Source of the DNA: Hymenobacter sp. 15J16-1T3B
Lineage (GTDB): Bacteria; Bacteroidota; Bacteroidia; Cytophagales; Hymenobacteraceae
DNA length: 64,000 nucleotides
Assembly: GCF_020711235.1 (NCBI RefSeq)
Contig: NZ_JAJFAV010000006.1
Coordinates: 124,001-188,000, forward strand
Direction of reading: 5' to 3'
Below are positions 20,457-43,752 of this stretch, piece by piece. Made by a program: the position numbers and the translations under genes. Numbering within the stretch: the stretch's first letter is position 1; every line of letters starts with the position of its first letter. A model generated the notes under the pieces. The model was not told the DNA's origin. It did not search any database and saw only the letters and a list, made by a program, of their open reading frames with translations.

Positions 20457-20653
20457 GTCATCCTGAGGCGTAGCCAAAGGACCTTGCTCGCTGCACCCCG
20501 TGCCGCCGCTGCCGGCGACGTGCTGACGCTTTTCAGTAGTGGCAGTGACGCCAAAAGCGCAGCCACCGCGGCCTATACACCAGGGCGGTGGTGGCTGCGT
20601 TTATCGGTTGGTGCAGGGATAGAGGAAGGTCCTTCGCTTAGGCTCAGGATGAC
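20457..20653. repeat. Palindromic intergenic repeat, copy A (~197 bp)
   Basis: Begins GTCATCCTGAGGCG and ends GGCTCAGGATGAC. Inside, AAGGACCTT near the left end mirrors AAGGTCCTT near the right end, and AAAGCGCAGCCACC (from about 20554) pairs with GGTGGCTGCGTTT (20590-20602). Same family as 37800-37994 and 43573-43752. It fills the gap between the DUF72 and PfkB genes. Confidence 0.85.
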
Positions 20654-20684
20654 GTTCTATCTTATCCACTCATCCACTGGGCAC

Positions 20685-21638
20685 CTACGCCGCGGCGCGG
20701 TCTTGGGGCATAGTGTCGAGCAGCCACTGGTAGAGCTTGTCGACGTCGGCTTTCTTGAACAGCTCGGTGCCGGGGTTCATGGTGGCGGCGGTGCCGCAGG
20801 CCACCCCCAGGCGGGCCGCCTCGCGCACACCTTGGCCCTGGGCCAGGGCGTGCACCAAGCCCGCTACCATACTGTCGCCGGCGCCCACGGTGCTGCGCTT
20901 TTTCACGGCCGGGGCCGGAATGTGGTCGACTAGGTCGCGGGTGACGACGCAGGCGCCCTGCGGCCCGAGCGAAGTCACCACAATTTCGCAGCGGCCCTCG
21001 CCGATGAGGCCCTGCGCGGCGTCGGCCAGGCCGGCGCTGTCCAGCTCTTCGACGCCGGCTAGCTTGCTCAGCTCGCCCACGTTGGGCTTGATCAGGTACA
21101 CGCCCGCCTCGATGACGCGTTGCAGGGCCGGCCCCGACGTATCGGCCACCACCTTGGCGCCGATGCTGTGGGCCCAGCGTACGATGTCGACCAGAAACTC
21201 GGGCTCGACGCCGGGCGGCAGGCTGCCGCTCACCACCAGAAAATCGGGGGTGGGCAAGGCCCGCAGCGCCGCCAGCACCTGCTGCTGTTCGGCGGCCGTG
21301 AGCGGGGTGCCGGGCATGCCGAAGCGGTACTGCTGCCCGGCCGAAGAATCGACTACAATGAAGTTTTCGCGCGTCCAGCCGGCGGCGGGCACGGCGTGCG
21401 GCTCTAAGCCTTCCTCGCGCAGCAATTCCTGCAGCCGCTGCCCGGTGGCCCCACCCGCCGGAAACAGCGCCGTCGAGTCGGACCCTAGGCGCTTAAGGGC
21501 CCGCGACACGTTGATGCCGCCGCCGCCGGGCTCGTACTTGGGCGTTTCGCAGCGCAGCTTCTGGTCGGGCACGATCTTGTCGACGGCGGTGCTCTTGTCC
21601 ACGGTCGGGTTCAGGGTCAGGGTGACGATGCGTTTCAT
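20685..21638 (-). CDS. PfkB-family sugar/phosphosugar kinase
   Basis: A 317-residue cytoplasmic kinase of the ribokinase/PfkB fold, close in length and layout to E. coli phosphofructokinase-2 and 1-phosphofructokinases. ATG at 21638 gives MKRIVTLTLNPTVDKSTAVDKI. The substrate loop KYEPGGGGINVSRALKRLGSDSTALFPAGG (about 35-64) and the ATP-site signature STVGAGDSMVAGLVHALAQG (about 250-270, catalytic Asp in GAGD) are intact. The likely reaction is ATP-dependent phosphorylation of fructose-6-phosphate or a related hexose phosphate; tagatose-6-phosphate is an alternative. No sugar transport genes sit beside it. It converges on DUF72 copy 1 across repeat A. Confidence 0.88.
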   Translation of the reverse strand: MKRIVTLTLNPTVDKSTAVDKIVPDQKLRCETPKYEPGGGGINVSRALKRLGSDSTALFPAGGATGQRLQELLREEGLEPHAVPAAGWTRENFIVVDSSAGQQYRFGMPGTPLTAAEQQQVLAALRALPTPDFLVVSGSLPPGVEPEFLVDIVRWAHSIGAKVVADTSGPALQRVIEAGVYLIKPNVGELSKLAGVEELDSAGLADAAQGLIGEGRCEIVVTSLGPQGACVVTRDLVDHIPAPAVKKRSTVGAGDSMVAGLVHALAQGQGVREAARLGVACGTAATMNPGTELFKKADVDKLYQWLLDTMPQDRAAA

Positions 21639-22002
21639 CGGAAGGAAGGTGCAAATGGAAGAATCTGGCCGCCAAGCGGCTGCCAGCGGCAATGTACTTG
21701 CTGCGCCGGTAGCGGGTTGTGGATAAGTGGTGGATAAAGGGGGTGGCGGGTAGGGTCGCGCGTTAGGGGGGCGGGCTGTTCTTCATAACGCCCGCGCAAG
21801 CAACGTTGCTGTGCTGTCGAACGGCGTGGAAAAACGCCATGCTGGGCGGGGCGAAGCAGCTCCACCGACTCGTTGTTCGGTGAACATGCTTCGACCCGCC
21901 CAGCATGGCAATATGTTCAACAGTCGGCCCGCGCGGCGTCTAGGCTGGGCAGCCGCGCTTAGGCGCCGGGCTGCAGGCCGCGCAAACGGCGCGCCCCGGC
22001 CG
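21639..22002. other. Intergenic region with a 15-bp-arm inverted repeat
   Basis: About 364 bp with no supported gene. It holds the PfkB promoter side and the hairpin at 21836-21909. Confidence 0.5.
21836..21909. repeat. Inverted repeat with perfect 15-base arms
   Basis: GCCATGCTGGGCGGG (21836-21850) pairs with CCCGCCCAGCATGGC (21895-21909), enclosing GCGAAGCAG and CATGCTTCG, which extend the pairing. It lies downstream of the SDR gene and upstream of PfkB, and resembles the other palindromic repeats in style but not in sequence. Confidence 0.75.
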
Positions 22003-22803
22003 TTACTTTTTCTCCTCCGGTTGCATCTGCATGTTCATCATTGTGGCCAGCATGGAGTCGGGGAAGAACACGCTGCTGGCGAAGTTCATCTTGGCCCCGA
22101 AGGTGGGCAGCACGCGGGCCTCGCCGGCCAGCAGGCCCTTGTAGCCGGCTTCGGCCACTTCCTCGGGCGTGGCTTTCTTGCTCTGGCCGACTTTGGTGTC
22201 TTCGGCCCCGGCCACCTGGAAAAAGTTGGTTTCGGTAGCGGGCGGGCAGAGCACGGTGATGGTGACGTCGGATTTCTGCTCCTTCAGCTCCTGCTGCAGG
22301 GCCTCGGAAAAGCTGAGCACGAAAGCCTTGGTGGCGGCGTACACGGCTTGGCGCGGGTTGGGCAAGAACGACACCACCGAGCCCAGCTGCAGGATTTTGC
22401 CGGCGTTGCGGGCCACCATTTCGCGCAAGTACAGCTTGGTCAGGTGCATCAACGACACCACGTTGACGTGCACAATGCCGATTTCCTTCTGCAAATCGGT
22501 TTCGGTAAAGAGCCCGGCTTCGCCGAAACCCGCGTCGTTCACGAGAATATCCACCTGCCCGCCCTGCGCCTTGACGGCGTCGTAGAGCTGCTGCGGGCCC
22601 TCGTGGGTGCTCAGGTCGGCGGCAATGCTGCTGCTCTGCACCTGCGGAAACTCGCCGCGGATTTTCTGCTCGGCCGCTTGCAGGCCGGCCGCGTCGCGGG
22701 CCGAGAGGATGAGGCGGTGCCCGTCGCGGGCGAAGCAGCGGGCCAGCTCGAAGCCAATGCCGGACGAGGCGCCGGTGATGAGCACGGTTTGGGAAGTAGC
22801 CAT
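22003..22803 (-). CDS. Short-chain dehydrogenase/reductase (SDR)
   Basis: A 266-residue NAD(P)H-dependent classical SDR. ATG at 22803 gives MATSQTVLITGASSGIGFELARCF with the nucleotide-binding TGASSGIG near the N-terminus. The usual NNAG is NDAG here (VNDAGFGEAG), a common variant. The catalytic set is LGSVVSF (Ser) then YAATK (Tyr and Lys, about 152-156). The sequence matches the DltE/YqjQ-like branch that acts on unknown ketones or aldehydes. C-terminal residues after about 235 include a methionine-rich tail (MLATMMNMQMQPEEKK). It is divergent from DUF72 copy 2 with 152 bp between starts. Confidence 0.93.
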   Translation of the reverse strand: MATSQTVLITGASSGIGFELARCFARDGHRLILSARDAAGLQAAEQKIRGEFPQVQSSSIAADLSTHEGPQQLYDAVKAQGGQVDILVNDAGFGEAGLFTETDLQKEIGIVHVNVVSLMHLTKLYLREMVARNAGKILQLGSVVSFLPNPRQAVYAATKAFVLSFSEALQQELKEQKSDVTITVLCPPATETNFFQVAGAEDTKVGQSKKATPEEVAEAGYKGLLAGEARVLPTFGAKMNFASSVFFPDSMLATMMNMQMQPEEKK

Positions 22804-22955
22804 AAAGGGGTAATTGGTTGTGGGTGATGGGGTGTGGGTACCGGCTTGCTTACTGCCGGCCTCGGCAAAGAGTTGCTGGCGCCGGGGCGCCAGCTCGGCC
22901 GGAGCCCCGGCGGCGCGGGCCGCGTACAAGGCAGTTTCGTGCTTCGTTGTCCGCC

Positions 22956-23678
22956 ATGCCCACTTACCACATCGGTTGCTCCGGCTACCACTACCGCCAC
23001 TGGCGCGGGCGTTTCTATCCCGACAAGCTGCCCGTGCGCCGCTGGTTTGAGTTCTACAGCCAGCACTTTGCCACGCTGGAGCTAAACGTGACCTTCTACC
23101 GCTTCCCGCAGCTGAGCTTCCTGCAGACCTGGCACGCCGCCAGCCCGCCCGAGTACCGCTTTGCCGTGAAGGCCCCGCGGCTGATAACGCACTACAAGCA
23201 GTTCAACGAGGTGGGCCCCCTGCTCACCGACTTCTACGACACGGTGCAGCAGGGCCTGCGGGAAAAGCTCGGGCCGGTGCTCTTTCAGCTGCCGCCCCGG
23301 GCCGCCTATACCCCCGAGCGCCTCGCCCGCATCCTCGACGCGCTTCACCCCGGTTTCACCAACGTGCTTGAATTTCGCCACCCGAGCTGGTGGCAGGAGC
23401 CGGTGTACGCGGCCTTGCGCGAGCGGGGCGTCACGTTTTGCGGGCAGAGCCACCCGGCCCTGCCCGACGCGCTCATTGCCACCACCCCGACGCTGTACTA
23501 CCGCCTGCACGGCGTGCCCAACCTCTACCAGTCGCCCTACGACGAGGCCTTTCTGCGCCGGCTAAAATCGGCGGCCGATGCAGCCCCGGGGGCCCGGGAA
23601 GCGTTTGTGTACTTCAACAACGACATCGACGCCTCGGCCATTCACAACGCCCGGCAGCTGCAAGCCCTGGTGGAATAG
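22956..23678 (+). CDS. DUF72 family protein, copy 2
   Basis: A 240-residue TIM-barrel DUF72 protein from ATG at 22956, paralogous to the 19686-20420 product. All blocks are kept: YHIGCSGYHYRHWRGRFYP, LELNVTFYRFP, YRFAVKAPRLITHYKQF, LGPVLFQLPP, NVLEFRHPSWW, YYRLHGVPNLYQ and FVYFNND. Conservation of the putative pocket residues in both copies suggests that both are active, with different substrates or expression. It is divergent from the SDR gene. Function is unknown for the family; a phosphate- or nucleic-acid-related enzyme has been suggested only by fold. Confidence 0.93.
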   Translation: MPTYHIGCSGYHYRHWRGRFYPDKLPVRRWFEFYSQHFATLELNVTFYRFPQLSFLQTWHAASPPEYRFAVKAPRLITHYKQFNEVGPLLTDFYDTVQQGLREKLGPVLFQLPPRAAYTPERLARILDALHPGFTNVLEFRHPSWWQEPVYAALRERGVTFCGQSHPALPDALIATTPTLYYRLHGVPNLYQSPYDEAFLRRLKSAADAAPGAREAFVYFNNDIDASAIHNARQLQALVE

Positions 23679-24104
23679 CCGCGCGTCAAGACCCGTTTCG
23701 CATGAGTTTGCCACCCGCCGGGAAGAGCCGAAAGCTGTTTGATTGTTGTACTCATTGGTTTGATTCACTTTACCGATGCGGGCACGGCTGACGGATCTTT
23801 GCGTTGCCGCACGCATCCGGCGCCGGAACTGCCGCCCGGTTTGCTCGCCCGCCCCGCCTAACCCGCCGCGGCGGCGCCCCAACCACAACCCGACGGCCGC
23901 GCATAACCTTTTGCGGCCGGCTTGGTTTAACAGTGCCTACCACCCACCCACTGAGTACCTGCTGATTCCTGCTTTGCCCGGCCGCCGGCCGGGGAATGGG
24001 GCGCAGCGTTGGGGCGGGGCCAGCCGGGCCCCCTCCGCCGCCTGCCACCGGTACTTCTGCGCCTCTCCAACACAGAATTTTGCGCCTTTCTGCGCCCGAG
24101 CTAC
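23679..24104. other. Leader region of the RND efflux operon
   Basis: About 426 bp without a supported gene. A near-consensus -7 box GATCTTTG lies at 23794-23801, about 300 bp upstream of the TolC start. No operator-like palindrome was found by eye. Confidence 0.4.
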
Positions 24105-25463
24105 ATGCGCTATTTCTCCCGGGCGGCCCGCACCGCCGGTATCCTGAGCGGTCTGTTGCTGGCGTTTAGCCAGCCCGCGGCCCGCGCCCAAACCCAACCC
24201 GCTGCGCCCAGCGGCACCCTGACCCTGGAGCAGTGCCTGCAGTTTGCCCTGCAGAACCAGCCCGCGGTGCGCCAGGCCCGCCTCGACGAGGAAACCAACG
24301 AGTCCAGCATCCGCATCGGGCTGGCCGGCTGGCTGCCCCAAATTGCCCTGAACGGCACCGGCCAGCACTACTTCCAGCTGCCCTACACCGTCATTCCCAT
24401 CGACGGCATCAACACGCCGCGGCAAATCGGGCTGCGCAACCAGTCTACCATCGGGCTGGCCGCCACCCAGAGCATCTACAACAACGACCTGAGCCTGGCC
24501 CGGCGCAGCGCCGGCCCCTCGCGGCAGTTCTACCAGCAAAATTCGGTGGGCGTGCGCATCGACGTGGTGTCGGACGTGAGCAAGGCCTTCTACGACGTGC
24601 TGCTCTCCCAGCGCCAGCTCGACGTGCTCAACGAGGACATCGTGCGGCTGCAGCGCAGCCTGCAGGACGCCAAGGCGCGCTACGACGCCGGCATCGTCGA
24701 TAAAATCGACTACAAGCAGGCCGAAATTCTGCTCAACAACTCCATCGTGGCCCGCAAGCAGGCCCAGGAAAGCATCAAAGCTAAGTCGGCCTACCTCAAG
24801 GAGCTAATGGGCCTGAGCGCCCCGCAGCCGCTGCAGCTGCAGTACGACACCACCCGGCTGATGCAGGACGCGGTGGTGGACACGGCCGTGGCCCTGGACC
24901 CCGCCAACCGCATTGAGTTCCAGCAGCTGCAGACGCAAAAAGCCCTTCAGAACGCCCAGATCCGCTATTACCAGTACGGCTGGCTGCCCTCGGTGGGCGC
25001 CTTCGGCAACTACAACACCGCCTTTCTGAGCAACGAGCTGAGCACGCTTTATAGCCAGCGCCTGCCCAACTCCTACGCCGGGTTGCAGTTTTCGCTGCCC
25101 ATCTTCACCGGCACGCGCCGCCTGCAGAACCTGCGCCGCGAGCGGCTCACCGACCAGCGCATCGACCAGGACATCCTGGCCACGCGTAACCGCATCAATA
25201 CCGAGTACGAGCAGGCCTTGGCTTCCTACAAGGGCAACTACGCCGACTACCTCACCGGCCAGCGCAACCTCGCGCTGTCGAAGGAGGTGTACAACGTGGT
25301 GCAGCTGCAGTACCGCGAAGGCATCAAGACTTACCTCGACGTCATCGTGGCCCAGACCACGCTGCGCACGGCCCAGCTGAACTACTACAGCGCCTTGTTT
25401 CAGGTGCTGAGCAGCAAGGTGGACCTGCTGCGCGCCCAGGGCACCCTGCCGACTCAGTACTGA
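24105..25463 (+). CDS. TolC-family outer-membrane efflux protein
   Basis: A 452-residue outer-membrane channel of a tripartite RND pump. ATG at 24105 gives a signal peptide ending at ARAQTQPA. The two OEP repeats are visible: LTLEQCLQFALQNQPAVRQARLDEETNESSIRIGLAGWLPQIALNG (about 30-85) and QKALQNAQIRYYQYGWLPSVGAFGNYN (second). Long helices (DVSKAFYDVLLSQRQLDVLNEDIVRLQRSLQDAKARYDAGIVDKIDYKQAE) form the periplasmic barrel. The C-terminus ends LLRAQGTLPTQY. It is the first gene of a same-strand set with the membrane-fusion protein (25669) and the inner-membrane pump (27204). Confidence 0.95.
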   Translation: MRYFSRAARTAGILSGLLLAFSQPAARAQTQPAAPSGTLTLEQCLQFALQNQPAVRQARLDEETNESSIRIGLAGWLPQIALNGTGQHYFQLPYTVIPIDGINTPRQIGLRNQSTIGLAATQSIYNNDLSLARRSAGPSRQFYQQNSVGVRIDVVSDVSKAFYDVLLSQRQLDVLNEDIVRLQRSLQDAKARYDAGIVDKIDYKQAEILLNNSIVARKQAQESIKAKSAYLKELMGLSAPQPLQLQYDTTRLMQDAVVDTAVALDPANRIEFQQLQTQKALQNAQIRYYQYGWLPSVGAFGNYNTAFLSNELSTLYSQRLPNSYAGLQFSLPIFTGTRRLQNLRRERLTDQRIDQDILATRNRINTEYEQALASYKGNYADYLTGQRNLALSKEVYNVVQLQYREGIKTYLDVIVAQTTLRTAQLNYYSALFQVLSSKVDLLRAQGTLPTQY

Positions 25464-25495
25464 TGGCAACGGCCGCTAGAACGACCTAAACAGAA

Positions 25496-25614
25496 CGTCA
25501 TGCTGAACCTCGAGAAGCATCTCTACCGCTTCGCCTGATAGCAACATACTCAGCCGGACGCCCTAAGTCGAGCAGCGAAGCGGTAGAGATGCTTCGGCTT
25601 CGCTCAGCATGACG
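25496..25614. repeat. Inverted repeat in the TolC/MFP gap (GTCATGCTGA ends)
   Basis: CGTCATGCTGA (25496-25506) and TCAGCATGACG (25604-25614) are exact inverted ends. Inside, AAGCATCTCTACCGCTTCGC pairs with GCGAAGCGGTAGAGATGCTT. The element is about 119 bp and lies inside the efflux operon. Confidence 0.85.
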
Positions 25615-25668
25615 GCCTTTCTACTGAGTGCTGTCGTTCTTATTCTTCTTCGCGCTTCTACTTCCAAC

Positions 25669-26913: not shown

Positions 26914-26925
26914 GGCGGATATGAA

Positions 26926-27045
26926 CGTCCTGTCGAGCGCCGCCGAGACATCTCGCGTGCTGATGTGGGATAGTAACTCATCGTTCAACGAGGAATTTAC
27001 TACCTGACCAAACACGCGAGATTCCTCGACAAGCTCGGAATGACG
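26926..27045. repeat. Inverted repeat in the MFP/pump gap (GTCGAG family)
   Basis: CGAGACATCTCGCGTG near the left end mirrors CACGCGAGATTCCTCG near the right end, between CGTCCTGTCGAG and CTCGGAATGACG. Related to the element at 54463-54567 and different from the one at 25496-25614. Confidence 0.75.
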
Positions 27046-27162
27046 CGCTGGTAGGCTGTTCAATGACTGGGCAACCCACCCATAGCCAACGCGGCTTTCT
27101 TCAAACCCAACTCACGCCATTCCGCTGACGCACACATAGCCTCCCCAGCCACTCGTCAGGCT

Positions 27163-33013: not shown

Positions 33014-35206
33014 TTACTGTACCTTAGCACATTGGCAATGCACGCGAATATCACGGGAGACGCCGGAGGTGTTGGCCACGCGCAGCGTCCAGAGGTTGGG
33101 CGCGCCGACGGGGTCTTCCACCCCGCTGAAGAGCACCACCATGCCGTCGGCGTAGCCGGCGGGCGTGATGTTGCGGAAGCCGCCCCCGCCGCCGAGCAGG
33201 CGGGTGCCCGCCGGGCACGGCACCTGCAGGGTGGACAGTGTGTTGGTGGCCACCGTCGCGTCAATCGATTGGATGCTGAGCCCCACCTCGAAGTTGCCGC
33301 TGGCGCGCACGTTGCCGGTCACGTCCAAGGCCGCCTGGGGGTTGCTGGTATTGATGCCCACGTTGCCGCCGGGCTTGAGATAGAGACGGTAGTCGGCCAC
33401 GCCGGTTTGGGCCACGTTTAGCCCCCCGCCGTCCAGGTTGAAGTGCCAGCGGCTGGTGCCCCCGGCGTCTTTCCACGACACCAGGTCGCTGGCAGTGCCG
33501 GTGCCCTGCACGCTCAGCGGCCGGTCGGGGGCGGCGGTGCCGATGCCCACCAGCCCGCTGCCGAGCACCGTCAGGCGGGGGGTGCCGCTGGTGCCCAGCT
33601 GCAGCGGGCCGTTCAGCTCGTTGACGATGCCGAGGGTGGTGCTGCCGTCGGCGGGGTAGCCCAGGTAGCCGCCCCGGCTGGCGCCGAAGCCGTTGGGGAA
33701 GAACGTGAGGTAGGTGTGCTTGCCGGGGCCCGTGCCGCCGAGCTGCAGGGCGTTGGCGTCGGCTTCGATGCGCTGCCGGCCGAGCACGTGCAGGGTTTCC
33801 TGCGGGTCGGTCAGCCCGATGCCCACGCGCCCGCTGTTGCCAATGGCCAGGCGGGCGGTGGAGTTGGTAAAGAAGGTCAGCCCGAAGCGGTTGGGGCTGC
33901 CGGCGCTGCGGGCCGAGGCAATGACCTCGCCCGAATTGGTGCCGAAGCGCAGCCCGTTGCCGTTGACCGTGCCGTCGTTGACGCCGCTCACGTCCAGGTT
34001 TACCCCGCCGTTCACGTTGAGCCGGTCCGAGCCGCTGCTGGTGCCCACGCCCACGTTGCCGGCGTTGTCGACGCGCAGACCCTCGGACCCGCCGTCGTTC
34101 GAGAGCCAGTTGCCGTTGAGGCTCAGGGTGGTGGTGGCCGTGTGGTTGCCCAGGTTGTCGCCCTGCCCGCTGGGCGTGGCGCCCGCGCTGAGGTTGCCGG
34201 CCGCGTCCACCGTCACCACCCGGGCCCCGGTGCCGGCCAGCGCGTCGAAGCGGGTGGCGCCGGCCACGTGCAGGGGCACCTGCGGAGCAGTGGTGCCCAC
34301 GCCCAGGCGTCCGGCCTGCACCGTCAGCACGTTGGCATCGGCCGTGGGCAGGTAAATCTGGGTACCGAACAGCAGGTCGCGCCCCGTGCCCGCCGTCGAC
34401 TCGCCCCCGGCATACACGTCGCCGTCGGTGTAGCTGACCTGCACCGAGCCGTTGCTGGTCAGTCGGCTGAACCGCAGCTGGTACTGCTGCCCGGCCTGCA
34501 CCGGCAGCGCAGTGCCCAGTGTAAAGCTCAGCGGGCCGCCCCCGAACAAGGGCGTGGTCACTTGCGCCGCCACTGTGGTGGCCGGCAGCGGGCCCACCAC
34601 GTCGAGGCGGGCCGAGCCGGTGGTAGCCGTGCTCTGGGTGCTCAGCATCACCGACACCACCTTGAGCGCGCCGGTTTGCTGCACCGTAAAGCTTTGCCAG
34701 GTACCCGAGCCCATGGTGGCCCCGCCCGCCACCGTGCCGCTGGAACCCGCATCGGCTACCAGGGTGGCGGTGTTGTAGGTGCCGGGCGAGCTGCTGATGG
34801 CCAGCGTCTGGCTGCCGGCCGCTACGGTGGTGGCCCGGGTTAGGGCGCCGCCTAACTGCACCTCGCTACCGGTCTTGCTCAGGCCGTTGCCGGCGCCCAC
34901 GGTGGCCTGCTGGGCGCTGGGCAGGCGGTTCCACTGGCCGGCGAAGAAGTACCAGAAGCCGGGCTCGGGCCCGTCGGTCTGGAACACCATCAGGCCCAGG
35001 GGCACGTTCGTCATGGCCGTGCGCTGGGCCTCGCTCAGGCGCGGGATGAGCAAGCCCTTGTCGGTGCTGCTGATGTCCAGCGCCGCTTTCGGGTCGGGCG
35101 TGGCCGTGCCGATGCCCACCGTGCCCGGCGTTTGGGCGTGAAGAGCGGTGGGCAGCCCCAGCAGCAGGCTGCCCGCGACAAGAAAGCGGGAGTAACGGTT
35201 TGTCAT
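33014..35206 (-). CDS. Large secreted surface protein with GIG repeats
   Basis: A 730-residue exported protein from ATG at 35206, signal peptide ending at ALHAQTPG. It opens with the VGIGTATPDPKAALDISSTDKG block shared with the gene at 35418-36959, then many repeats of the type VGIGT..P...LHV.G (GVGTSSGSDRLNVNGG, VGIGLTDPQETLHVLGRQR, VGIGTAAPDRPLSVQG, VGINTSNPQAALDVTGN). The middle holds a Thr/Gly-rich region (about 100-260) with a beta-rich adhesion-like or lectin-like segment. The C-terminus ends with VHCQCAKVQ; no T9SS sorting domain is obvious. Such proteins in Bacteroidota are cell-surface or tail-fibre-like; function is unknown. It follows its paralog in the same direction, 211 bp apart. 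Confidence 0.8.
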   Translation of the reverse strand: MTNRYSRFLVAGSLLLGLPTALHAQTPGTVGIGTATPDPKAALDISSTDKGLLIPRLSEAQRTAMTNVPLGLMVFQTDGPEPGFWYFFAGQWNRLPSAQQATVGAGNGLSKTGSEVQLGGALTRATTVAAGSQTLAISSSPGTYNTATLVADAGSSGTVAGGATMGSGTWQSFTVQQTGALKVVSVMLSTQSTATTGSARLDVVGPLPATTVAAQVTTPLFGGGPLSFTLGTALPVQAGQQYQLRFSRLTSNGSVQVSYTDGDVYAGGESTAGTGRDLLFGTQIYLPTADANVLTVQAGRLGVGTTAPQVPLHVAGATRFDALAGTGARVVTVDAAGNLSAGATPSGQGDNLGNHTATTTLSLNGNWLSNDGGSEGLRVDNAGNVGVGTSSGSDRLNVNGGVNLDVSGVNDGTVNGNGLRFGTNSGEVIASARSAGSPNRFGLTFFTNSTARLAIGNSGRVGIGLTDPQETLHVLGRQRIEADANALQLGGTGPGKHTYLTFFPNGFGASRGGYLGYPADGSTTLGIVNELNGPLQLGTSGTPRLTVLGSGLVGIGTAAPDRPLSVQGTGTASDLVSWKDAGGTSRWHFNLDGGGLNVAQTGVADYRLYLKPGGNVGINTSNPQAALDVTGNVRASGNFEVGLSIQSIDATVATNTLSTLQVPCPAGTRLLGGGGGFRNITPAGYADGMVVLFSGVEDPVGAPNLWTLRVANTSGVSRDIRVHCQCAKVQ
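34913..35139. repeat. 227-bp exact direct repeat, copy 1
   Basis: As read, identical to 36681-36907. It encodes the start of the mature parts of the two surface proteins (the AQTPGTVGIG..NRLPSA region). Confidence 0.9.
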
Positions 35207-35417: not shown

Positions 35418-36959
35418 CTACTCGGCCTGGTACACGATGTAGGTCAGGCGCACGTGAGTGAGCGTGACGGCGCCGTTGCTGTTCATATCCACGTCGATCA
35501 GGTAGCTGAACTGGGCGTTGTCGACGACGATGTTCACGCCCTGGTTGACGGTCTGAAACTGGTTTCGGTCGCTGCCCAGCGTGGCGTAGGCGGTGGTAGA
35601 GGAGGTGTAGTTGTCGGCGCCGTTGTTGCCGCGAATGGCTACCAGGCGGGCCCGCATGGTCGTTGCGCCGTTGCCGTCGTCGTCGTAGCCCTGCAGCTCG
35701 ATGTTGGTGATGGTGGCGCCCTGGGGCAGGTGTACCGGGGCCACCAGCCGCCCGGCGCCCGAACCGCCGAGGTACACCTCGGCCGGGTTGCCGCCGGTGC
35801 TGATGGAGGCAAAGACCGGGTGGTTGGTCGGGTCGGTCGACGCGAAGTCGAAGGGCGTGAGCATGTAGTACTGCGTGCGGGCCGAGCTGTAGGCGTAGTT
35901 TTCCCCGCCCGGGATGCTCACGCCGTTGCTCACCTGCAGCTGCCCGTCCTGGCTCAGCGTCATCAGGGTGCTGGCCACGGTGGAATTCAGGTTGTAGGTC
36001 ACCCACTGAAACCGCTTGGTGGCAATGGCCGGCACGCCGAAGGTCAGCGCGTTGGGCTCCATGAACACGCCCCAGCGGCCGATGCCGCTGTAATTGCCCG
36101 AGGTAAACGCATCCCAGGCCCGGGTGATAAGCGGGCGGTCGGCCCCGGCCAGAATGATACCCAGCGCGCCGTCGGCGGCGATGTTGCCGGCCACGTGCAG
36201 CTGCTGCTGGGCCGAGGTACGCCCGATGCCGACGTTGCCGTTGCTGAGGACGCGCAGGCGCTCCTGCCCGCCGGTGCCGAGGCGGATGGTCTGGTGCACG
36301 TCGCTCTGCTGGCTGAAGCCGGCCAGATCAATAAAGCTCTTGGTAGCTGCGCTGCTGCCCCCGCCGGCCGAGAGGCGCAGGTAGCCGTCGTCGGCCGCGG
36401 CCGAGAGCGTGCCGCCGCCGGCCAGACCGTAAGCGCTGATTTCGCCGCTGATGCGGGCGGTGCCCACGGCCGGGCGCACGGCGTTGTTGCCGATGGCCGC
36501 GCCCAGCATGAGCGCGCCCTGGCCCAAATCGAGGCGGGCGTTGGGAGCGGCCACGCCCACGCCCACGTTGCCGCTGTTGTCGAGGCGCAGGCCGGTGCTG
36601 CTGCCGTCGTTTGAGAGCCAATGCCCGTTCAGCCCTAGGTTTTGCGTGGCGGTGTGGTTGCCCAGGTTGTCGCCGGCAGTGGCGCTGGGCAGGCGGTTCC
36701 ACTGGCCGGCGAAGAAGTACCAGAAGCCGGGCTCGGGCCCGTCGGTCTGGAACACCATCAGGCCCAGGGGCACGTTCGTCATGGCCGTGCGCTGGGCCTC
36801 GCTCAGGCGCGGGATGAGCAAGCCCTTGTCGGTGCTGCTGATGTCCAGCGCCGCTTTCGGGTCGGGCGTGGCCGTGCCGATGCCCACCGTGCCCGGCGTT
36901 TGGGCGTAAGCGGCCAGCCCCGCCAACAAGGCAATCAAGGTGGAATAAAGCTGTTTCAT
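35418..36959 (-). CDS. Secreted surface protein, paralog of the 33014-35206 product
   Basis: A 513-residue exported protein from ATG at 36959; signal peptide ends at AAYAQTPG. The first about 75 residues of the mature part are identical to those of the downstream paralog (227-bp exact repeat). GIG-type units follow (VGVGVAAPNARLDLGQGA, VGIGRTSAQQQLHVAGN), then a distinct C-terminal domain (about 300-513) with GENYAYSSARTQYYMLTPFDF, a beta-rich segment YLGGSGAGRLVAPVHLPQGATITNIELQGYDDDG and a terminal strand LTHVRLTYIVYQAE. The two genes thus share a common N-terminal cassette and different ends, a modular arrangement. Function unknown; surface attachment or ligand binding is plausible. Confidence 0.8.
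   Translation of the reverse strand: MKQLYSTLIALLAGLAAYAQTPGTVGIGTATPDPKAALDISSTDKGLLIPRLSEAQRTAMTNVPLGLMVFQTDGPEPGFWYFFAGQWNRLPSATAGDNLGNHTATQNLGLNGHWLSNDGSSTGLRLDNSGNVGVGVAAPNARLDLGQGALMLGAAIGNNAVRPAVGTARISGEISAYGLAGGGTLSAAADDGYLRLSAGGGSSAATKSFIDLAGFSQQSDVHQTIRLGTGGQERLRVLSNGNVGIGRTSAQQQLHVAGNIAADGALGIILAGADRPLITRAWDAFTSGNYSGIGRWGVFMEPNALTFGVPAIATKRFQWVTYNLNSTVASTLMTLSQDGQLQVSNGVSIPGGENYAYSSARTQYYMLTPFDFASTDPTNHPVFASISTGGNPAEVYLGGSGAGRLVAPVHLPQGATITNIELQGYDDDGNGATTMRARLVAIRGNNGADNYTSSTTAYATLGSDRNQFQTVNQGVNIVVDNAQFSYLIDVDMNSNGAVTLTHVRLTYIVYQAE
36681..36907. repeat. 227-bp exact direct repeat, copy 2
   Basis: Identical to 34913-35139 as read. The exact match extends a little past the coding block, ending where the two signal peptides differ. 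Confidence 0.9.
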
Positions 36960-37168
36960 AGCGGAGAAAAGAGTGAGACTAAGCGCTGCCGGGGCGCCGC
37001 GGGCTCGGCCGTTGCAAGTATCTGAATACGACCCGCGAATATATAAGCAGGGGCTTTTTCTTAAGCGCACGGTGCCCGGCCCTACCCGAAACAATCGGCC
37101 CGCCCACCGGCTTATCTTGCCGACCCGGCTGTTCCCGCGCCCGTCCGTTCACCCTTTCTTGTTTGTGC

Positions 37169-37765: not shown

Positions 37766-37799
37766 TTGCGAGTTGCGGGAGGTAGGTTGTCTGGCATTC

Positions 37800-37994
37800 G
37801 TCATCCTCCCATCTGGCGTACACACCGCGAAGGACCTTCCTCGCACCCTGCACTAACTACCAAGCGCAGCCACCAACGCCCTTATCATTCGGGCATGGTG
37901 GCTGCGCTTCTCGATTTGATTGAGAGTAGCAAACGTCAGAGCATTGCCGGCAGCGGCGGTGCGAGGAAGGTCCTTCGCTACGCCTCAGGATGAC
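37800..37994. repeat. Palindromic intergenic repeat, copy B (~195 bp)
   Basis: Has perfect 21-nt inner arms (37827-37847 with 37958-37978) and ends GTCATCCT and CTCAGGATGAC. The centre pairs AAGCGCAGCCACC with GGTGGCTGCGCTT. Its left half resembles the reverse complement of the right halves of copies A and C, so it is inverted relative to them. Confidence 0.9.
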
Positions 37995-38018
37995 ATTGCT
38001 TTTGCACTCTGGTACACA

Positions 38019-38053
38019 AAAAAGGCCCGCTGCACTGTGCAGCGGGCCTTTTT
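38019..38053. terminator. Bidirectional intrinsic terminator
   Basis: AAAAAGGCCCGCTGCA (38019-38034) pairs with TGCAGCGGGCCTTTTT (38038-38053) around a 3-nt loop, with A/T runs on both sides. It serves the OmpA-family gene at 38075. Confidence 0.9.
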
Positions 38054-38074
38054 ATTGGGCAAGCAGGCTAAGGC

Positions 38075-39670
38075 CTAGCGGCGCGGGGCCGGCTTGCGGG
38101 CGGGGGCTTTCTTGGCCGGCGCCTTTTTGGTCGTCGTTTTCTTGGCCGGCGTGGCCTTGGCGGGCGTCGTCGGAATGACGATGTCGGGCATGGCCGGCTC
38201 GGGGCCGTACTTCACCTCGGCCGCGTTCGGGTCGCCGGTCAGGTACAGGTCGAAGTCCACGCGGCGGTTCAGGGCGCGGCCGGCGTCGGTGGCGTTGTCG
38301 GCAATGGGCTTGGTTTCGCCGTAGCCGCGCGACTCGATGCGGGCGTCCGGAATGCCTTTGCTGAGCATGTACACGCGGGCGGCGGCGGCGCGGTCGTGCG
38401 AGAGGCGCAGGTTGTACGGGTCGGAACCCTTGCTGTCGGTGTGGCCGGCAATGCTCAGGGTGTAGTCCGGGTACTCGTTCAGGATCTGCACGATGGCGTC
38501 CAGGGTCGGGTACGAAGAGGGCAGCAGCACGGCCTTATTGAACTCGAAGTTGATATACTTCGTGGCTTCCTGCAGGCGCTTCTTGGCCTCGGCCTTAATC
38601 TCGGGGCAGCCGCGGTTCGAAGCCGGACCCGGGCGGTTCGGGCAGCGGTCCTGGTAGTCGGGCACGCCGTCGCCGTCGGTATCGAGCGGGCAGCCGGAGG
38701 CATCCACTTTCACGCCGGCCGGGGTGTCCGGGCACTTGTCGTTCTGGTCGATTACGCCGTCGTTATCCGCATCCGGGCAGCCTTTCAGCTCCGGCTTGCC
38801 GGGCGTATCGGGGCAGGCGTCGTCCTTGTCGGCCACGCCGTCGTTGTCGCGGTCGGGGCAGCCCTGCAGCTCCGGCTTACCGGCTTCGGTGGGGCACTGG
38901 TCCTGGTAGTCGGCCACGCCGTCCTTGTCCGTGTCGATGGGGCAGCCGTTTTCGTCCACCTTCACGCCGGTGGGCGTGCCGGGGCACTTGTCCTTGCGGT
39001 CGGCCACGCCGTCCCCGTCCTCGTCCTTGGCCTTGCCCAGGTTGAAGTTCAGGCCCACGGTGTGCTGCAGAAACTTGTCGTCCCAGCCGTTGTCGTCGCG
39101 GGTCTGGTCGCCATCGAAGTTGGCGTAGGAGGGTGCGTGTTGCGCCGTCTGCACGAACAGGTTCACCGTTTCGCCGAGGCGGAAATTAATACCGGCGCCG
39201 GCGGCAATGTCGAAGTAGCTCTTGTCCTGGTCGATGCGGCCGCCCCGGTAAAATCCTTCGCGCGAGGTGTAGGTCCAGCCCGGCATGGCCAGCAGGTAGG
39301 GCTGGATGAAGGCGTCTTCCTTCAGCGCCCAGCCGTTGTTGAGCTTGAGCTTGATGCCCAGGTTCACGTTCACCAGGTTGGTGGCGAAGTACGTGTTGGC
39401 GCTTTGGCTGCCCTTCAGCTCCCCGTAGAAGCCTTGCAGGCTCAGGTCGAGGCCCTTGGTCAGGTAGCGGTTGATGGCCAGGCCCGGGGCGTAGCGGTTG
39501 CTGCTGAAGTTCCAGTAGTCGGAGCCGTAGTTGCCCTTGTACTGCAGCGCGCTGACGTTGAGTCCGATGCTGGTTTTGCGGTCGGCCGACTGGGCCTGAC
39601 TCAGAAGCGGTACGACGGCCAGCGCCAAGGGCAGCACCAGTCGTCGAGGATTGGGAATAAGGTGTTTCAT
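38075..39670 (-). CDS. OmpA-family protein with TSP3 Asp repeats and Lys-rich tail, copy 1
   Basis: A 531-residue outer-membrane protein. ATG at 39670 gives a signal peptide ending at LLSQAQS. An N-terminal eight-strand-type beta-barrel domain (about 20-225: SIGLNVSALQYKGNYGSDYWNF..NNGWALKEDAFIQPYLLA..LQHTVGLNFNLG) is followed by five calcium-binding thrombospondin-3-type repeats (DEDGDGVADRKDKCPGTPTG, DTDKDGVADYQDQCPTEAG and so on; about 230-360), then a peptidoglycan-binding OmpA domain (INFEFNKAVLLPSSY..LSIAGHTDSKGSDPYNLRLSHDRAAAARVYML, with RNRRVDF). A Thr/Pro/Ala/Lys tail (ATPAKKTTTKKAPAKKAPARKP) closes it. Its close paralog lies immediately upstream (39839). Confidence 0.93.
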   Translation of the reverse strand: MKHLIPNPRRLVLPLALAVVPLLSQAQSADRKTSIGLNVSALQYKGNYGSDYWNFSSNRYAPGLAINRYLTKGLDLSLQGFYGELKGSQSANTYFATNLVNVNLGIKLKLNNGWALKEDAFIQPYLLAMPGWTYTSREGFYRGGRIDQDKSYFDIAAGAGINFRLGETVNLFVQTAQHAPSYANFDGDQTRDDNGWDDKFLQHTVGLNFNLGKAKDEDGDGVADRKDKCPGTPTGVKVDENGCPIDTDKDGVADYQDQCPTEAGKPELQGCPDRDNDGVADKDDACPDTPGKPELKGCPDADNDGVIDQNDKCPDTPAGVKVDASGCPLDTDGDGVPDYQDRCPNRPGPASNRGCPEIKAEAKKRLQEATKYINFEFNKAVLLPSSYPTLDAIVQILNEYPDYTLSIAGHTDSKGSDPYNLRLSHDRAAAARVYMLSKGIPDARIESRGYGETKPIADNATDAGRALNRRVDFDLYLTGDPNAAEVKYGPEPAMPDIVIPTTPAKATPAKKTTTKKAPAKKAPARKPAPRR

Positions 39671-39787
39671 GGAGTGGCGGCGTTCCGCGGGCGACATTAC
39701 CCGCGGCGGAATGGCCTCATATACCCCCGCTTTCGGCCGAAGGTTATGCTTGCTTCCCCGACTTCATCACCGCTTCATATCCAGCAA

Positions 39788-39816
39788 AACGGCCGACCCT
39801 TGCGAGGTCGGCCGTT
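39788..39816. terminator. Hairpin between the two OmpA-family genes
   Basis: AACGGCCGACC (39788-39798) pairs with GGTCGGCCGTT (39806-39816) around a 7-nt loop. It lies just after the stop of the upstream copy. Confidence 0.7.
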
Positions 39817-39838
39817 AAGCAGGCAATGCAAAACCTAA

Positions 39839-41593
39839 TTAGCGCTTGGGCTGGGCCTTCCGGGGCGTCGGCGCCGCTTGGGGTTTGGCGACTGTTGCCT
39901 TGGCCGCCGGAGTTTTGGCGGCGGCCGGTTTGCGGACGGCGGAGGCTTTGGCCGGCGCTTTGGCGGCTGGGCGGCGTGCGCTCGGGCGGACCGCCGCTTT
40001 GCGGGCGGGCTTGGCCGGTTGGGCCTTGGCCGGGGTGCCGGTGGGCTCTTTGCCGTATTTCACTTCGGCCGCGTTACGGTCGCCGGTCAGGAACAGATCG
40101 AACTCCACGCGACGATTTTTGGCGCGGCCGGCCTCGGTGGTATTCGGCGCGACGGGGCGGGCCGGGCCATAGCCGCGCAGCTGCAGGCGGTCTTCGGCAA
40201 TGCCTTGGCCCACGAGGTAGCTGCGGGCGGCGGCGGCCCGCTCGCGCGAGAGGCGCTGGTTGAAGGCCGCCGGGCCCTTGCTGTCGGTGTGGCCGGCAAT
40301 GCTGAGCGAATAATCGGGGTAATCACGCAGAATCTGGGCAATACCATCGAGCGTGGCGTGCGAGCTGGACAGCAGCGTGGCCCGGTTCGGCTCGAAGCTG
40401 ATGAAGCGGGTGGCTTCGCGCAGGCGCTTGCGGGTTTCGGCCCGCACGATGGGACAGCCCTTGTTGCTGGCCGCGCCGGCGCTGGTCGGGCAGCGGTCGG
40501 CCGCGTCGGGCACGCCGTCGCCGTCGGTATCGGCCGTGGCCGAGGGCGCCGGCGCCGGGGTGGCGGGCTGGGCCGGTGGCGTGGGCGCCACTTCGGCTAC
40601 GGGGCAACCTGAGGGGTCTACCTGGGTGCCGCTGGGCGTGTCGGCGCACTTGTCTTCCGCGTCGGGTACGCCGTCGTTGTCGGCATCGGGGCAGCCCTGC
40701 AACTCGGGTTTGCCGGCCACGTCCGGGCAGGCGTCGTCGCCGTCCGATACGCCGTCGCCGTCCTTGTCGGCGCAGCCTTTCAGCTCCACGGTGCCGGCTT
40801 GGTCGGGGCATTGGTCCTGGTAGTCGGGCACGCCGTCGCGGTCCGAGTCGAGGGGGCAGCCTTTTTCATCCACCAGGATGCCGGTGGGCGTGCCCGGGCA
40901 CTGGTCCTTGCGGTCGGGCACGTCGTCGTCGTCCTCGTCGCGCGACTGGCCCAGGTTGAAGGTCAGCCCCACAGTGTGCTGCAAAAATCGGTCGTCCCAC
41001 CGGTCTTTGTCGTTGGCTTTGTTCACGCCGTCCAGGTTGGCGTCGAGCGGCAGGTGCTGGCCGGTCTGCACGAAGAGGCTCACGCCCCCGCCGAGGCGGA
41101 AATTCAGCCCCGCTGCCCCAAACAAGTCGAAATACCCCTGGTCGCGGTCGGAACGGATGTTGTCGGCCCAGCCGATGCGGCTGGTGTAGGTCCACCCCGG
41201 GGAAGCCAGCAGGTAGGGCTGGATGAAGGCGTTTTCCTTCAGGGCCCAGCCGTTGTTGAGCTTGAATTTCAGGCCTAGGTTGGCGTTGACAACTGTGGTA
41301 GTGAAACGCGTGCGGGCGCTGGGGTTGTTTCCCGTCAGCTCCCCGAAAAACAGCTGGCTACTTAAATCCAGGCCTTTGCCCAGGTACTGGTTGATGGCAA
41401 TGCCGCCGGCGTACTTGCTGCGGTCGAATTTCCAGTAGTCAGAGCCGTAGTCGCCCTGGTACTGCAGGGCGCTGAGGTTGATGCCGAAGCTGGTGCGGCG
41501 GTCGGCGGTTTGGGCCTGCGCCGGCCGCGGCGCGGCCAGCCACGCCAGCGGCAGCGCCAGCAGCCAACGGCCAAAGAGTATGGAGTGCTTCAT
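39839..41593 (-). CDS. OmpA-family protein with TSP3 Asp repeats and Lys-rich tail, copy 2
   Basis: A 584-residue outer-membrane protein from ATG at 41593, signal peptide ending at RPAQAQT. Domains match copy 1: barrel part (about 25-225), TSP3 repeats (DEDDDDVPDRKDQCPGTPTG, DSDRDGVPDYQDQCPDQAG, DKDGDGVSDGDDACPDVAG), a Pro/Ala-rich linker (VAEVAPTPPAQPATPAPAPS) that splits the repeat array, and the OmpA peptidoglycan-binding domain (ISFEPNRATLLSSSH..LSIAGHTDSKGPAAF). The Lys/Ala/Pro tail is much longer (about 75 residues: RKAAVRPSARRPAAKAPAK and more). Tandem duplication with divergence. The barrel/OmpA pair links the outer membrane to the wall; the tail's role is unknown. Confidence 0.93.
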   Translation of the reverse strand: MKHSILFGRWLLALPLAWLAAPRPAQAQTADRRTSFGINLSALQYQGDYGSDYWKFDRSKYAGGIAINQYLGKGLDLSSQLFFGELTGNNPSARTRFTTTVVNANLGLKFKLNNGWALKENAFIQPYLLASPGWTYTSRIGWADNIRSDRDQGYFDLFGAAGLNFRLGGGVSLFVQTGQHLPLDANLDGVNKANDKDRWDDRFLQHTVGLTFNLGQSRDEDDDDVPDRKDQCPGTPTGILVDEKGCPLDSDRDGVPDYQDQCPDQAGTVELKGCADKDGDGVSDGDDACPDVAGKPELQGCPDADNDGVPDAEDKCADTPSGTQVDPSGCPVAEVAPTPPAQPATPAPAPSATADTDGDGVPDAADRCPTSAGAASNKGCPIVRAETRKRLREATRFISFEPNRATLLSSSHATLDGIAQILRDYPDYSLSIAGHTDSKGPAAFNQRLSRERAAAARSYLVGQGIAEDRLQLRGYGPARPVAPNTTEAGRAKNRRVEFDLFLTGDRNAAEVKYGKEPTGTPAKAQPAKPARKAAVRPSARRPAAKAPAKASAVRKPAAAKTPAAKATVAKPQAAPTPRKAQPKR

Positions 41594-41816
41594 CGGGGCG
41601 CGGGTTGAGCGGGCAAATTGACCTTTAACGGGGCTGCCCAGAGGGGCTGCCGGCCCGCCCGGTGGTGCTGGGGTGGGGGGTGGGGCGGCATTAATAGTCT
41701 AAACATACGGGCAAATGCCGGTTGCAGCCAAGCCCGCCGCCAACTTTGCCCGCCGTACCGGCCGCGCAAGTGCGAAGCGAGGAATCCGGGGGAGTAGAAG
41801 GATACCAATAAGCAAA

Positions 41817-41852
41817 CGCGGCCCCGCCCGGGCAAAACCGGACGGGGCCGCG
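41817..41852. terminator. Hairpin after the OsmC-family gene
   Basis: CGCGGCCCCG (41817-41826) pairs with CGGGGCCGCG (41843-41852); an A-run follows on the + strand. It lies 16 bp after the stop of the leftward gene. Confidence 0.6.
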
Positions 41853-41868
41853 CAAAAAAACGGCGCAA

Positions 41869-42267
41869 TTATTCCGCCAAGGCGGTTTCTATGGTCACGC
41901 CGGCCGTCAGAGCTTTGTGCACCGGGCAGGCGTTGGCCACCTGCAGCAGGCGCTGCCGCTGCTCGGCCGTCAGCTCACCCAGCAACTCGATGCGCCGCGT
42001 GAGGTGGCGCACCACGTGGTCGGCCGCCTGCTCGAAGCTCACCTGCGTATCGATGCGCTGCAGGGGCCAGCCTTTGCGGTTGGCGTACATGCGCACCGTG
42101 ATGCACGTGCAGGCCGTGAGGGCCGCGGCCAGTAGCTCGCCGGGGCTGGGGCCCATGTTCTGCCCGCCGTCGGCCAGGGGCTCGTCGGCTAGTAAGGCGT
42201 GGCCGCTGTCGGTGGTCAGATCCGTTACGTAAGGGTCGGGGCCGAGGTGGCCGGTGATGCGGGGCAT
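41869..42267 (-). CDS. OsmC-family peroxide-reducing protein
   Basis: A 132-residue cytoplasmic OsmC/Ohr-superfamily protein. ATG at 42267 (MPRITGHLGPDPYVTDL) was preferred over one nine codons upstream. The two reactive cysteines are in AALTACTCITVRMYANRKGW and VANACPVHKAL; the first block has two cysteines and either could be the reactive one. It is in the YhfA-like branch (OsmC proteins starting with a G-H-x-G type sequence) and would reduce organic hydroperoxides. It has no adjacent regulator on its own strand; the pirin gene follows 53 bp upstream in the same direction. Confidence 0.88.
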   Translation of the reverse strand: MPRITGHLGPDPYVTDLTTDSGHALLADEPLADGGQNMGPSPGELLAAALTACTCITVRMYANRKGWPLQRIDTQVSFEQAADHVVRHLTRRIELLGELTAEQRQRLLQVANACPVHKALTAGVTIETALAE

Positions 42268-42319
42268 GGCAGGACGAAAAGAAGGTGCGCGCAAGGTAAC
42301 CGCCGAAGCGGCCGGCCGG

Positions 42320-43036
42320 TTAGCCGAGCATGGGCACTTCCATCAGCAGCACCCGGGCCGCGCTGTCGGCCTGAATGGCAAACCGGTCGGTTTCCCAGAT
42401 GCCGAAACCGTCGCGGCGGTGCAGGGCCTGCCCGTCGACGGTCACGTCGCCTTCGAGCACGAAGATGTACACGCCGTTGCCGGCTTTTTTCAGCTCGTAT
42501 TCCGTGGCGAAGCCCGCGTCGAGCTGGCCGAGGTGAAACCACGCATCCTGGTGCAGCCACACGCCCTCGTCGTCCGCGTTAGGCGACAGCACCTGCTGCA
42601 GGCGGTTGTGCTGGTCTTCGGGGCGGAAGGTCTGCTGGTCGTAGCGCGGCGGCACGTTGCGCTTATTCGGAATCACCCATATCTGCAGAAACTTCACCTC
42701 TTCGGTGGCCGAGTGGTTTTTCTCGCTGTGGGCCACGCCGGTGCCGGCGCTCATCACCTGCACGTCACCGGGCCGGATAACGGCCTTGTTGCCCATGTTG
42801 TCTTGGTGCTCCAAAGAACCCGACAAGGCAATGGACACGATTTCCATGTTGTCGTGCGGGTGGCGGCCGAAGCCCATGCCGCCGGCCACGGTGTCGTCGT
42901 TGAGCACGCGCAGGGCTCCGAAGTGCATGCGCTGCGGCTCGTAGTAGCCGGCGAAGCTGAAGGTGTGGTAAGAATTAAGCCAACCGTGGTTGGCGTGGCC
43001 GCGGGTAGCGGCCGGGTGAAAAACAGTGCGTGCCAT
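42320..43036 (-). CDS. Pirin-family protein (bicupin)
   Basis: A 238-residue cupin protein of the pirin family. ATG at 43036 gives MARTVFHPAATRGHANHGWLNSYHTFSFA. The metal-binding set His59, His61 (GRHPHDNMEI), His103 and Glu105 (VAHSEKNH) is complete. Pirins of this type are iron-binding; some have quercetinase activity and others bind regulatory proteins, so the exact role is not settled. It is divergent from the HxlR regulator at 43208 with about 170 bp between, holding a pair of inverted TTGCAAG sites. That pairing is a recurring one in bacteria and suggests that the regulator controls this gene. Confidence 0.93.
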   Translation of the reverse strand: MARTVFHPAATRGHANHGWLNSYHTFSFAGYYEPQRMHFGALRVLNDDTVAGGMGFGRHPHDNMEIVSIALSGSLEHQDNMGNKAVIRPGDVQVMSAGTGVAHSEKNHSATEEVKFLQIWVIPNKRNVPPRYDQQTFRPEDQHNRLQQVLSPNADDEGVWLHQDAWFHLGQLDAGFATEYELKKAGNGVYIFVLEGDVTVDGQALHRRDGFGIWETDRFAIQADSAARVLLMEVPMLG

Positions 43037-43111
43037 AACAAAAGGCCGGTAGGATGACGAAGGTAGCTGAGCCGAATACCCAGATAATCAGCAGCGTTGG
43101 CGCCGAGTGAC

Positions 43112-43148
43112 CTTGCAAAGGTGAATCATCGTACTATACTTTTGCAAG
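43112..43148. promoter_or_regulatory. Inverted TTGCAAG pair, candidate HxlR operator, with -7 boxes
   Basis: CTTGCAA at 43112-43118 and TTGCAAG at 43142-43148 face each other with centres 30 bp apart. TACTTTTG at 43137-43144 fits the -7 box for the HxlR gene and CACCTTTG (minus strand, 43123-43116) is close to one for the pirin gene, so the sites overlap both promoters. Confidence 0.6.
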
Positions 43149-43207
43149 TAGTTACATCAATGTATATCAGTATACGTTTTGTAACTTTTGCTTGAAATCA
43201 GCGTGTT

Positions 43208-43570
43208 ATGAAAGCAGAAAATCCAAAAAAACTTGCCGGCGGCTGCGCCTTTCGCCAAACACTTGACGTGCTGGAGGGCAAATGGAAGTTTGCCATTATC
43301 CACAGCCTGCTGCAGCACGGCACCCTGCGCTTCAAAGCCCTGGAGCGCGACGTGGAGGGCATCACCCCGCGCATGCTCATCAAGGAGCTGAAGCTGCTCG
43401 AAAACCACGGCATCCTCACGCGGCAGGCCTACGCCACCGTGCCGCCCACCGTCGAGTACACCCTCACCGACTGCGGCCGCTCCCTCGGGCCCATCATCAC
43501 GGCCATCGAAGAGTGGGGCCTGCAGAACCAGGCCGTTATCAGCAGCGGGCCGGTGCAGAGTAATAATTAG
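43208..43570 (+). CDS. HxlR-family transcriptional regulator
   Basis: A 120-residue winged helix-turn-helix regulator. ATG at 43208. The typical cysteine near the N-terminus is in GGCAFRQTL (Cys13), a possible redox or electrophile sensor as in related proteins such as YodB/HypR. KWKFAIIHSLLQHGTLRFKALERDVEGITPRMLIKELKLLENHGILTRQAYATVPPTVEYTLTDCG follows the family consensus (wing at VPPTVEYTLT). The C-terminal helix IEEWGLQNQA probably makes the dimer. It is divergent from the pirin gene, and inverted TTGCAAG sites in between are its likely operator. Confidence 0.93.
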   Translation: MKAENPKKLAGGCAFRQTLDVLEGKWKFAIIHSLLQHGTLRFKALERDVEGITPRMLIKELKLLENHGILTRQAYATVPPTVEYTLTDCGRSLGPIITAIEEWGLQNQAVISSGPVQSNN

Positions 43571-43572
43571 CT

Positions 43573-43752
43573 GTCACCCTGAGCGAAGGACCTTCCTCGC
43601 ATCTGGCACCGCCGTTGCTGACGAAGTGCCGGCTTTTTTCTGCTGTTGAAAGCCCAAGCGCAGCCCCGCCGCCCGGATGATAGGGAGCTGGGGCTGCGCT
43701 TGGTAGTTGGTGCGGGGTGCGAGCAAGGTTCTTCGCTCAGGCTCAGGATAAC
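43573..43752. repeat. Palindromic intergenic repeat, copy C (~180 bp)
   Basis: GCGAAGGACCTTCCTCGCA at the left mirrors GGTGCGAGCAAGGTTCTTCGC at the right; ends GTCACCCTGAG and CTCAGGATAAC. The core is AAGCGCAGCCCC paired with GGGGCTGCGCTT, a matched change compared with copies A and B. It lies between the HxlR gene and the S9 peptidase. Confidence 0.85.

Follow-up and report, generated by a model that had tools for sequence, protein, structure and literature searches.

According to the sections of PMC3733652 drawn on here, a superfamily of repetitive extragenic palindromic (REP) sequences tagged with CGTC, head-head dimers included, has been reported from five phyla, Bacteroidetes among them. 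Template switching between inverted repeats homogenises their arms and inverts their spacers (PMC8604942, in the part used here), and it can produce compensatory changes in hairpins (PMC8794818, likewise in part). The repeat studied here lies in a 64,000-nucleotide stretch of Hymenobacter sp. 15J16-1T3B (contig NZ_JAJFAV010000006.1, positions 124,001 to 188,000, forward strand; hereafter the window), where an original prediction had recognized three intergenic copies, A, B, and C, starting at 20457, 37800, and 43573. Reading the sequence confirmed all three. By sequence features, the CGTC-tagged superfamily is the nearest description found, and text searches of open-licence literature retrieved no description of this repeat itself. 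We lean towards regarding the copies as a dispersed, gene-free mobile palindrome, REP-like and of the size of a miniature inverted-repeat transposable element (MITE), in which matched changes and inversions arise at the DNA level.

The repeat occurs in many copies and in two subtypes. A, B, and C are built alike: a pair of inverted arms encloses an asymmetric spacer that contains the core hairpin. The arm reads (C)GTCATCCTGAGC-nnn-GCGAAGGACCTT and forms a small, imperfect hairpin whose loop varies; self-folding is possible for its part TCCT-GA-GC-nnn-GC-GA-AGGA, with G-A mismatches in tandem, and pairing between the two arms is possible as well. The long subtype (span of about 180-210 nt) carries the AAGCGCAGCCACC core hairpin in its spacer. 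The short subtype (about 100 nt) has a different, shorter spacer and is also present in the genome holding the window, here called G000; G002, G003, and the others are further genomes of the same family that were compared. In G000 the inner arm was matched 113 times at up to 3 mismatches (18 times for a reversed-pattern control) and the outer end GTCATCCTGAG was found exactly 144 times (control 0). A total of 130 long elements were delimited, 62 in G000, 52 in G003, and 16 in G002. The copies are thus not few, and since the core-bearing interiors of G000 (n = 51) have a mean pairwise identity of 0.795 and a maximum of 0.921, one recent duplication cannot explain them. The view of a dispersed family with no transposase inside it is supported. 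The exact arm pattern was present in 45 of 120 family genomes and in three of six genera, with 0 to 329 ends per genome. The arm motif was also found in at least 118 stretches of named contigs; among the matches listed, 109 were titled Hymenobacter and the other nine Adhaeribacter, Siphonobacter, or assorted metagenome bins.

Within the window, the 18-nt inner arm GCGAAGGACCTTCCTCGC was matched six times at up to 3 mismatches, two per copy and in inverted orientation, against a mean of 0.12 and a maximum of 2 in 100 dinucleotide shuffles. The finer details of the original prediction needed amendment. The outer ends said to be shared are exact on both sides of A, but the left end of B reads GTCATCCTCCC and the ends of C read GTCACCCTGAG and CTCAGGATAAC. 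The right core arm of A is GGTGGCTGCGTTT instead of GGTGGCTGCGCTT, and A therefore contains one mismatched pair. The compensatory change described for C is indeed matched in both arms, but it is the loss of one A:T pair, that is, a matched deletion. As proposed, B has the opposite orientation to A and C; orientation, however, is not a stable property of a site.

Covariation was tested by partner shuffling (300 shuffles). The core stem (13 bp), scored in 101 of the 106 oriented elements, contained 19 matched changes compared to 3.5 after shuffling (maximum 10), together with 94 single changes, so that covariation extends well beyond the three copies on which it had been proposed. The inner arms (18 bp, 106 elements) contained 43 matched changes against 28.2 (maximum 40), and the ten bases adjoining the arms showed no covariation (21 against 22.3). 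The signal is thus genuine in the core and slight in the arms, and it disappears in the adjoining ten bases. RNAalifold, applied to 47 copies, retained no stem but that of the core (11 pairs, five of them with change on both sides) and returned a covariation term of only 0.02, which is why the signal rests on the shuffled-partner test. The further step, that compensatory change implies selection on pairing, was not supported. The arms make up the longest stem, and they covary only weakly; the ten bases beyond them do not covary. On the oriented strand, single mismatches reveal no preference for G-U, either in the core (A-C 42, G-U 26) or in the inner arm (A-C 62, G-U 60). Of the 19 matched core changes, seven are transversions and one is a matched deletion; in addition, blocks of about 20 nt are repeated in both arms of the same element. 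Copying at the DNA level, from arm to arm or from copy to copy, explains these features at least as well as selection on pairing.

At sites shared between species, interiors were found in opposite orientation and arms with different blocks. By their flanking genes, 35 pairs of elements were recognized as shared among G000, G002, and G003. The core was missing on at least one side in eight, and the remaining 27 comprised 18 in the same orientation and nine inverted. Counted by site, because three sites give three dependent pairs each, inversion was observed at 9 of 22 (8 of 21 in the pair comparison, plus copy A of the window, which was read by eye as inverted relative to its G002 counterpart); the calls at L315 (247 nt) and L314 (182 nt) are less sure owing to their unusual lengths. 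Elements also differed between species by presence and absence, or survived as remnants. B has a counterpart in the same orientation in G003 (L007/L333), and its G002 site was read by eye as a one-arm remnant; at the C site, G003 keeps both arms without the interior, and no arm was seen in G005 or G006. Sites lacking the element were found and nine cases were aligned, with intergenic flanks too diverged for a target duplication to be read.

The arms appeared to change in concert within elements. In a comparison covering 32 of the 35 shared pairs and 128 of the 130 elements, the block between GTCATCC and the inner arm was identical on both sides in 8 of 62, 19 of 51, and 2 of 15 elements (0.6, 4.1, and 0.4 after shuffling), and special long arm blocks paired up 11, 7, and 1 times (3.1, 2.1, and 0.6). 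The same arm block was shared between species in 3 of 64 comparisons and within elements in 17 of 64. In L048/L330, whose interiors are 94% identical, both arm loops changed together. Even the subtype can differ at one site: L011 of G000 is long and its counterpart in another species (L274) short, and L060 of G000, coreless with ends of the long type, likewise corresponds to a short element (L228). Arm loops were surveyed in 58 pairs of G000, 24 of 25 from other genomes, and 81 of 84 from named contigs, which were partly picked by the exact pattern.

Elements are positioned behind genes. Among the 130 long elements, 64 lay between convergent genes, 61 between tandem genes, and five between divergent genes, with none inside a gene; the 279 background gaps, which include those holding elements, were convergent in 50, tandem in 165, and divergent in 64 cases (genes were called with a simple home-made codon-usage finder). 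Such a distribution would be expected if insertions were tolerated behind genes but lost from other places, or if gene ends were preferred.

From these patterns we infer the following course of events. The element would spread as DNA through an enzyme that works in trans and recognises the arms in folded form, and insertions would persist mainly where no gene or promoter is broken; mobility is suggested by copy number and by the sites without the element. Matched changes and inversions would come from DNA-level events at foldbacks: the polymerase would switch template from one arm to the other, or the element would exchange sequence with further copies, whichever way these are oriented. A foldable core would be retained alongside such events. 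The two processes are equal candidates, exchange being one because inverted pairs lose orthologous similarity and same-orientation pairs keep it. An RNA function would not be needed for the observed pattern.

Several results weigh against this interpretation. In the ten-base extension, G-U mismatches exceed A-C (97 and 63), an excess that we suspect reflects one position with T opposite G in many copies. Copying between arms did not perfect the upper core stems (one element against 0.33 after shuffling), and wholesale perfection of the core by this route was not seen. Inversion at 9 of 22 sites equals the share expected from random orientation, so repeated insertion at favoured sites is a possible source of it. 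Matched arms in both species that differ between them were limited to 2 of 32 shared pairs. Orthologous similarity had a mean z of 0.00 (s.e. 0.46) in inverted pairs and 0.82 (s.e. 0.25) in same-orientation pairs, which points to replacement by another copy, not to simple inversion in place. Finally, the aligned sites yielded no clean empty site readable to the base and no target duplication, and the searches described below identified no mobilising enzyme.

More tentatively, the elements could be long-lived chromosomal docking sites whose interior is repeatedly inverted and exchanged, either during foldback replication or through the action of an enzyme on the arms. They would then evolve in concert, palindromes replacing each other in place and acquiring 'compensatory' changes without any RNA function.

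The original prediction had left the choice between a non-autonomous element and a structured RNA. The first option agrees with a dispersed element free of transposase, and the second gained no positive evidence. A strict MITE, derived from an insertion sequence by deletion and moved by a DDE-type transposase that acts on the arms and makes target duplications, nonetheless seems rather unlikely. Its size, inverted ends, lack of genes, many copies, and absence from some orthologous sites are as expected, but no target duplication was readable and no parent was seen among 125 adjacent converging arm pairs in the stretches around elements. The arms of 122 pairs were separated by no more than 260 nt. 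Two pairs spaced at 501-4000 nt enclosed ordinary-looking genes and were not taken for an autonomous parent (arm-pair spacing and flanking palindromes were scanned in all 118 named stretches, and one further scan covered 80). At L195:2714-3574, arms 861 nt apart surround a predicted gene of 186 aa, perhaps caught between them; both arms have a TT loop, and their flanks form a palindrome, CCGTCT ... AGACGG.

We also consider it unlikely that the repeat is a structured RNA or mRNA 3'-end element, cotranscribed with the upstream gene, whose fold protects or processes mRNA ends and is kept by selection that produces covariation. Such a role would account for the covarying core, the position behind genes, the G-U excess of the ten-base extension, and the great stability of the predicted folds (-101 to -146 kcal/mol in six copies). 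But Rfam 15 gave no match above the gathering score on either strand of the 64,000-base window, and interiors between tandem genes lie about equally with and against the genes (11/7 in G000, 12/8 in G003, and 3/2 in G002). The inversions at shared sites, the missing wobble preference in core and inner arm, and the near-zero RNAalifold term likewise argue against it.

It is very unlikely that the repeat is a REPIN (REP doublet forming a hairpin) mobilised by a REP-associated tyrosine transposase (RAYT, Y1 type). It does consist of two inverted REP-like hairpins in many intergenic copies, and Y1_Tnp matches were present in 99 of 120 family genomes, but none was found in G000 at E 0.001 or better (three candidates scored). 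At least 11 of 45 element-bearing genomes lacked Y1_Tnp, including G113 (290 ends) and G101 (205 ends). From more than 150 Y1/RAYT matches, 26 loci were examined, and all of them lacked the 18-nt arm at up to 4 mismatches. A RAYT-driven REPIN in G000 was rejected on these grounds. Equally improbable are intrinsic terminators that happen to be repeated: nearly half of the elements lie between convergent genes and some short ones elsewhere sit inside A-run ... T-run palindromes, but B and C have their own terminator-like hairpins, which persist without the full element in the genomes named in Table 1, and termination is therefore rejected as the main function of these two copies.

Table 1. Copies of the repeat in the window and adjoining hairpins
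Feature	Position	Strand	Remark
Element A, long subtype	20457..20653	-	core nearer right arm; nearer left arm in G002 counterpart
A left inner arm	20474..20491	+	3 mismatches to consensus
A core hairpin	20555..20602	-	right arm GGTGGCTGCGTTT
A right inner arm	20620..20637	-	2 mismatches
Element B, long subtype	37800..37994	+	inverted relative to A and C
B left inner arm	37827..37844	+	exact
B core hairpin	37862..37909	+	
B right inner arm	37961..37978	-	exact
Terminator-like hairpin adjoining B, separate	38018..38053	.	in G002 without full element
Element C, long subtype	43573..43752	-	core with one-pair deletion
C left inner arm	43583..43600	+	exact
C core hairpin	43656..43701	-	
C right inner arm	43719..43736	-	2 mismatches
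Terminator-like hairpin adjoining C, separate	43777..43811	.	similar in G003 and G006, both without full element

Other repeats were noted during the analysis. In G000, a 70-nt element at L355:1521-1590 consists of the long arm block alone (GAGCAGAGCGAACCGAAGGTC), without a spacer. Two more inverted repeats of similar build, one of them GTCATTCCGAGC... and one ending GCTCAGCATGAC, at L216:5907-5980 and 6320-6407, suggest sister families of the same design. A unique flank continuing the palindrome for at least six bases was found in 21 of 84 short elements of named genomes (shuffle mean 1.2, maximum 5), for example at L191:7624-7720, L189:3903-4002, L225:7880-7977, and L255:2040-2119. Several of these cases look as if the element occupied the loop of an A-run ... 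T-run hairpin, and those close to contig ends (L176, L222, L238, L273) may be assembly fold-backs. Such flanks were scarce in long elements (3 of 34 and 5 of 39, in the range of the shuffles), and none of 10 short G000 elements had one. Elsewhere in the window, a 227-nt direct repeat (34913-35139 and 36681-36907, 100% identical, 1768 nt apart) lies in neighbouring minus-strand genes, in-phase repeats spaced at 81-90 nt (38627-40942) are common to two adjacent minus-strand genes, and a paralogous pair of plus-strand genes (19686-20420 and 22947-23678) is 3.26 kb apart.

When a hairpin shows matched changes, a functional RNA is usually considered proven. A covarying core combined with interiors that are opposite between species at many shared sites, and with no wobble preference in core and arm mismatches, makes this repeat family a caution for covariation-based RNA discovery. 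Dozens of copies per genome, at the same sites in sister species, also form a natural data set that would measure template switching, exchange between copies, and the turnover of REP-like elements in Bacteroidota.

Set against known systems, the repeat shares arm homogenisation, spacer inversion, and multi-base matched changes with the template-switch signatures in the cited parts of PMC8604942 and PMC8794818. Those accounts concern a mutation process in genes and RNA genes, whereas here a dispersed bacterial repeat is involved and exchange between copies may mimic the process. With MITEs such as ERIC, YPAL, NEMIS, RUP, and Nezha, as characterized in the sections of PMC3733652 cited above, it has in common a size within 70-300 bp, terminal inverted repeats, no coding capacity, many copies, and intergenic location. 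The likeness is one of description; unlike them, it has exchangeable arm blocks, and no parent insertion sequence or target duplication was found for it. REPINs with their RAYT transposase, in the portions of PMC3116915 and PMC8266576 used here, resemble it in having two inverted REP-like hairpins that move as a unit in many copies, and differ in the transposase, which G000 lacks and none of whose 26 examined loci carries these arms.

The closest agreement is with the CGTC-tagged REPs, again as far as those sections of PMC3733652 describe them. Both have a CGTC or TGTC tag at the outer ends (of 260 ends, 178 had CGTC, 26 TGTC, 15 another tag, and 41 no exact GTCAT), inverted pairs with the tags outside, structured spacers, an intergenic position behind genes, and no associated transposase gene, which was tested here for Y1_Tnp only. 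Head-head dimers predominate in that superfamily, and the delimited Hymenobacter pairs likewise have their tags outside, by construction of the search. On the other hand, the first two stem positions of CGTC-tagged REPs are complementary A-T pairs, whereas the Hymenobacter repeat begins with A-C (in 172 of the 188 arms read, the first A faces a C). Their loop of 4-5 nt corresponds here to mostly 3 nt or a replaced block (in the commonest arm blocks GAGC and GCG are separated by 2-3 nt, and replaced blocks reach about 20 nt), and their CCA tail to CTT (170 of 188 arms). For their stem of 8-9 bp, nine positions were counted by eye, the A-C pair and two G-A mismatches among them. The tandem G-A mismatches in the stem, the long two-part spacer, and the complete absence from genes also set the Hymenobacter repeat apart. 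Because it lacks three of their features, an A-T pair at the first position, a tail of CCA, and a loop of 4-5 nt, we have not filed it as a member of the CGTC-tagged superfamily, but it probably works in the same way.

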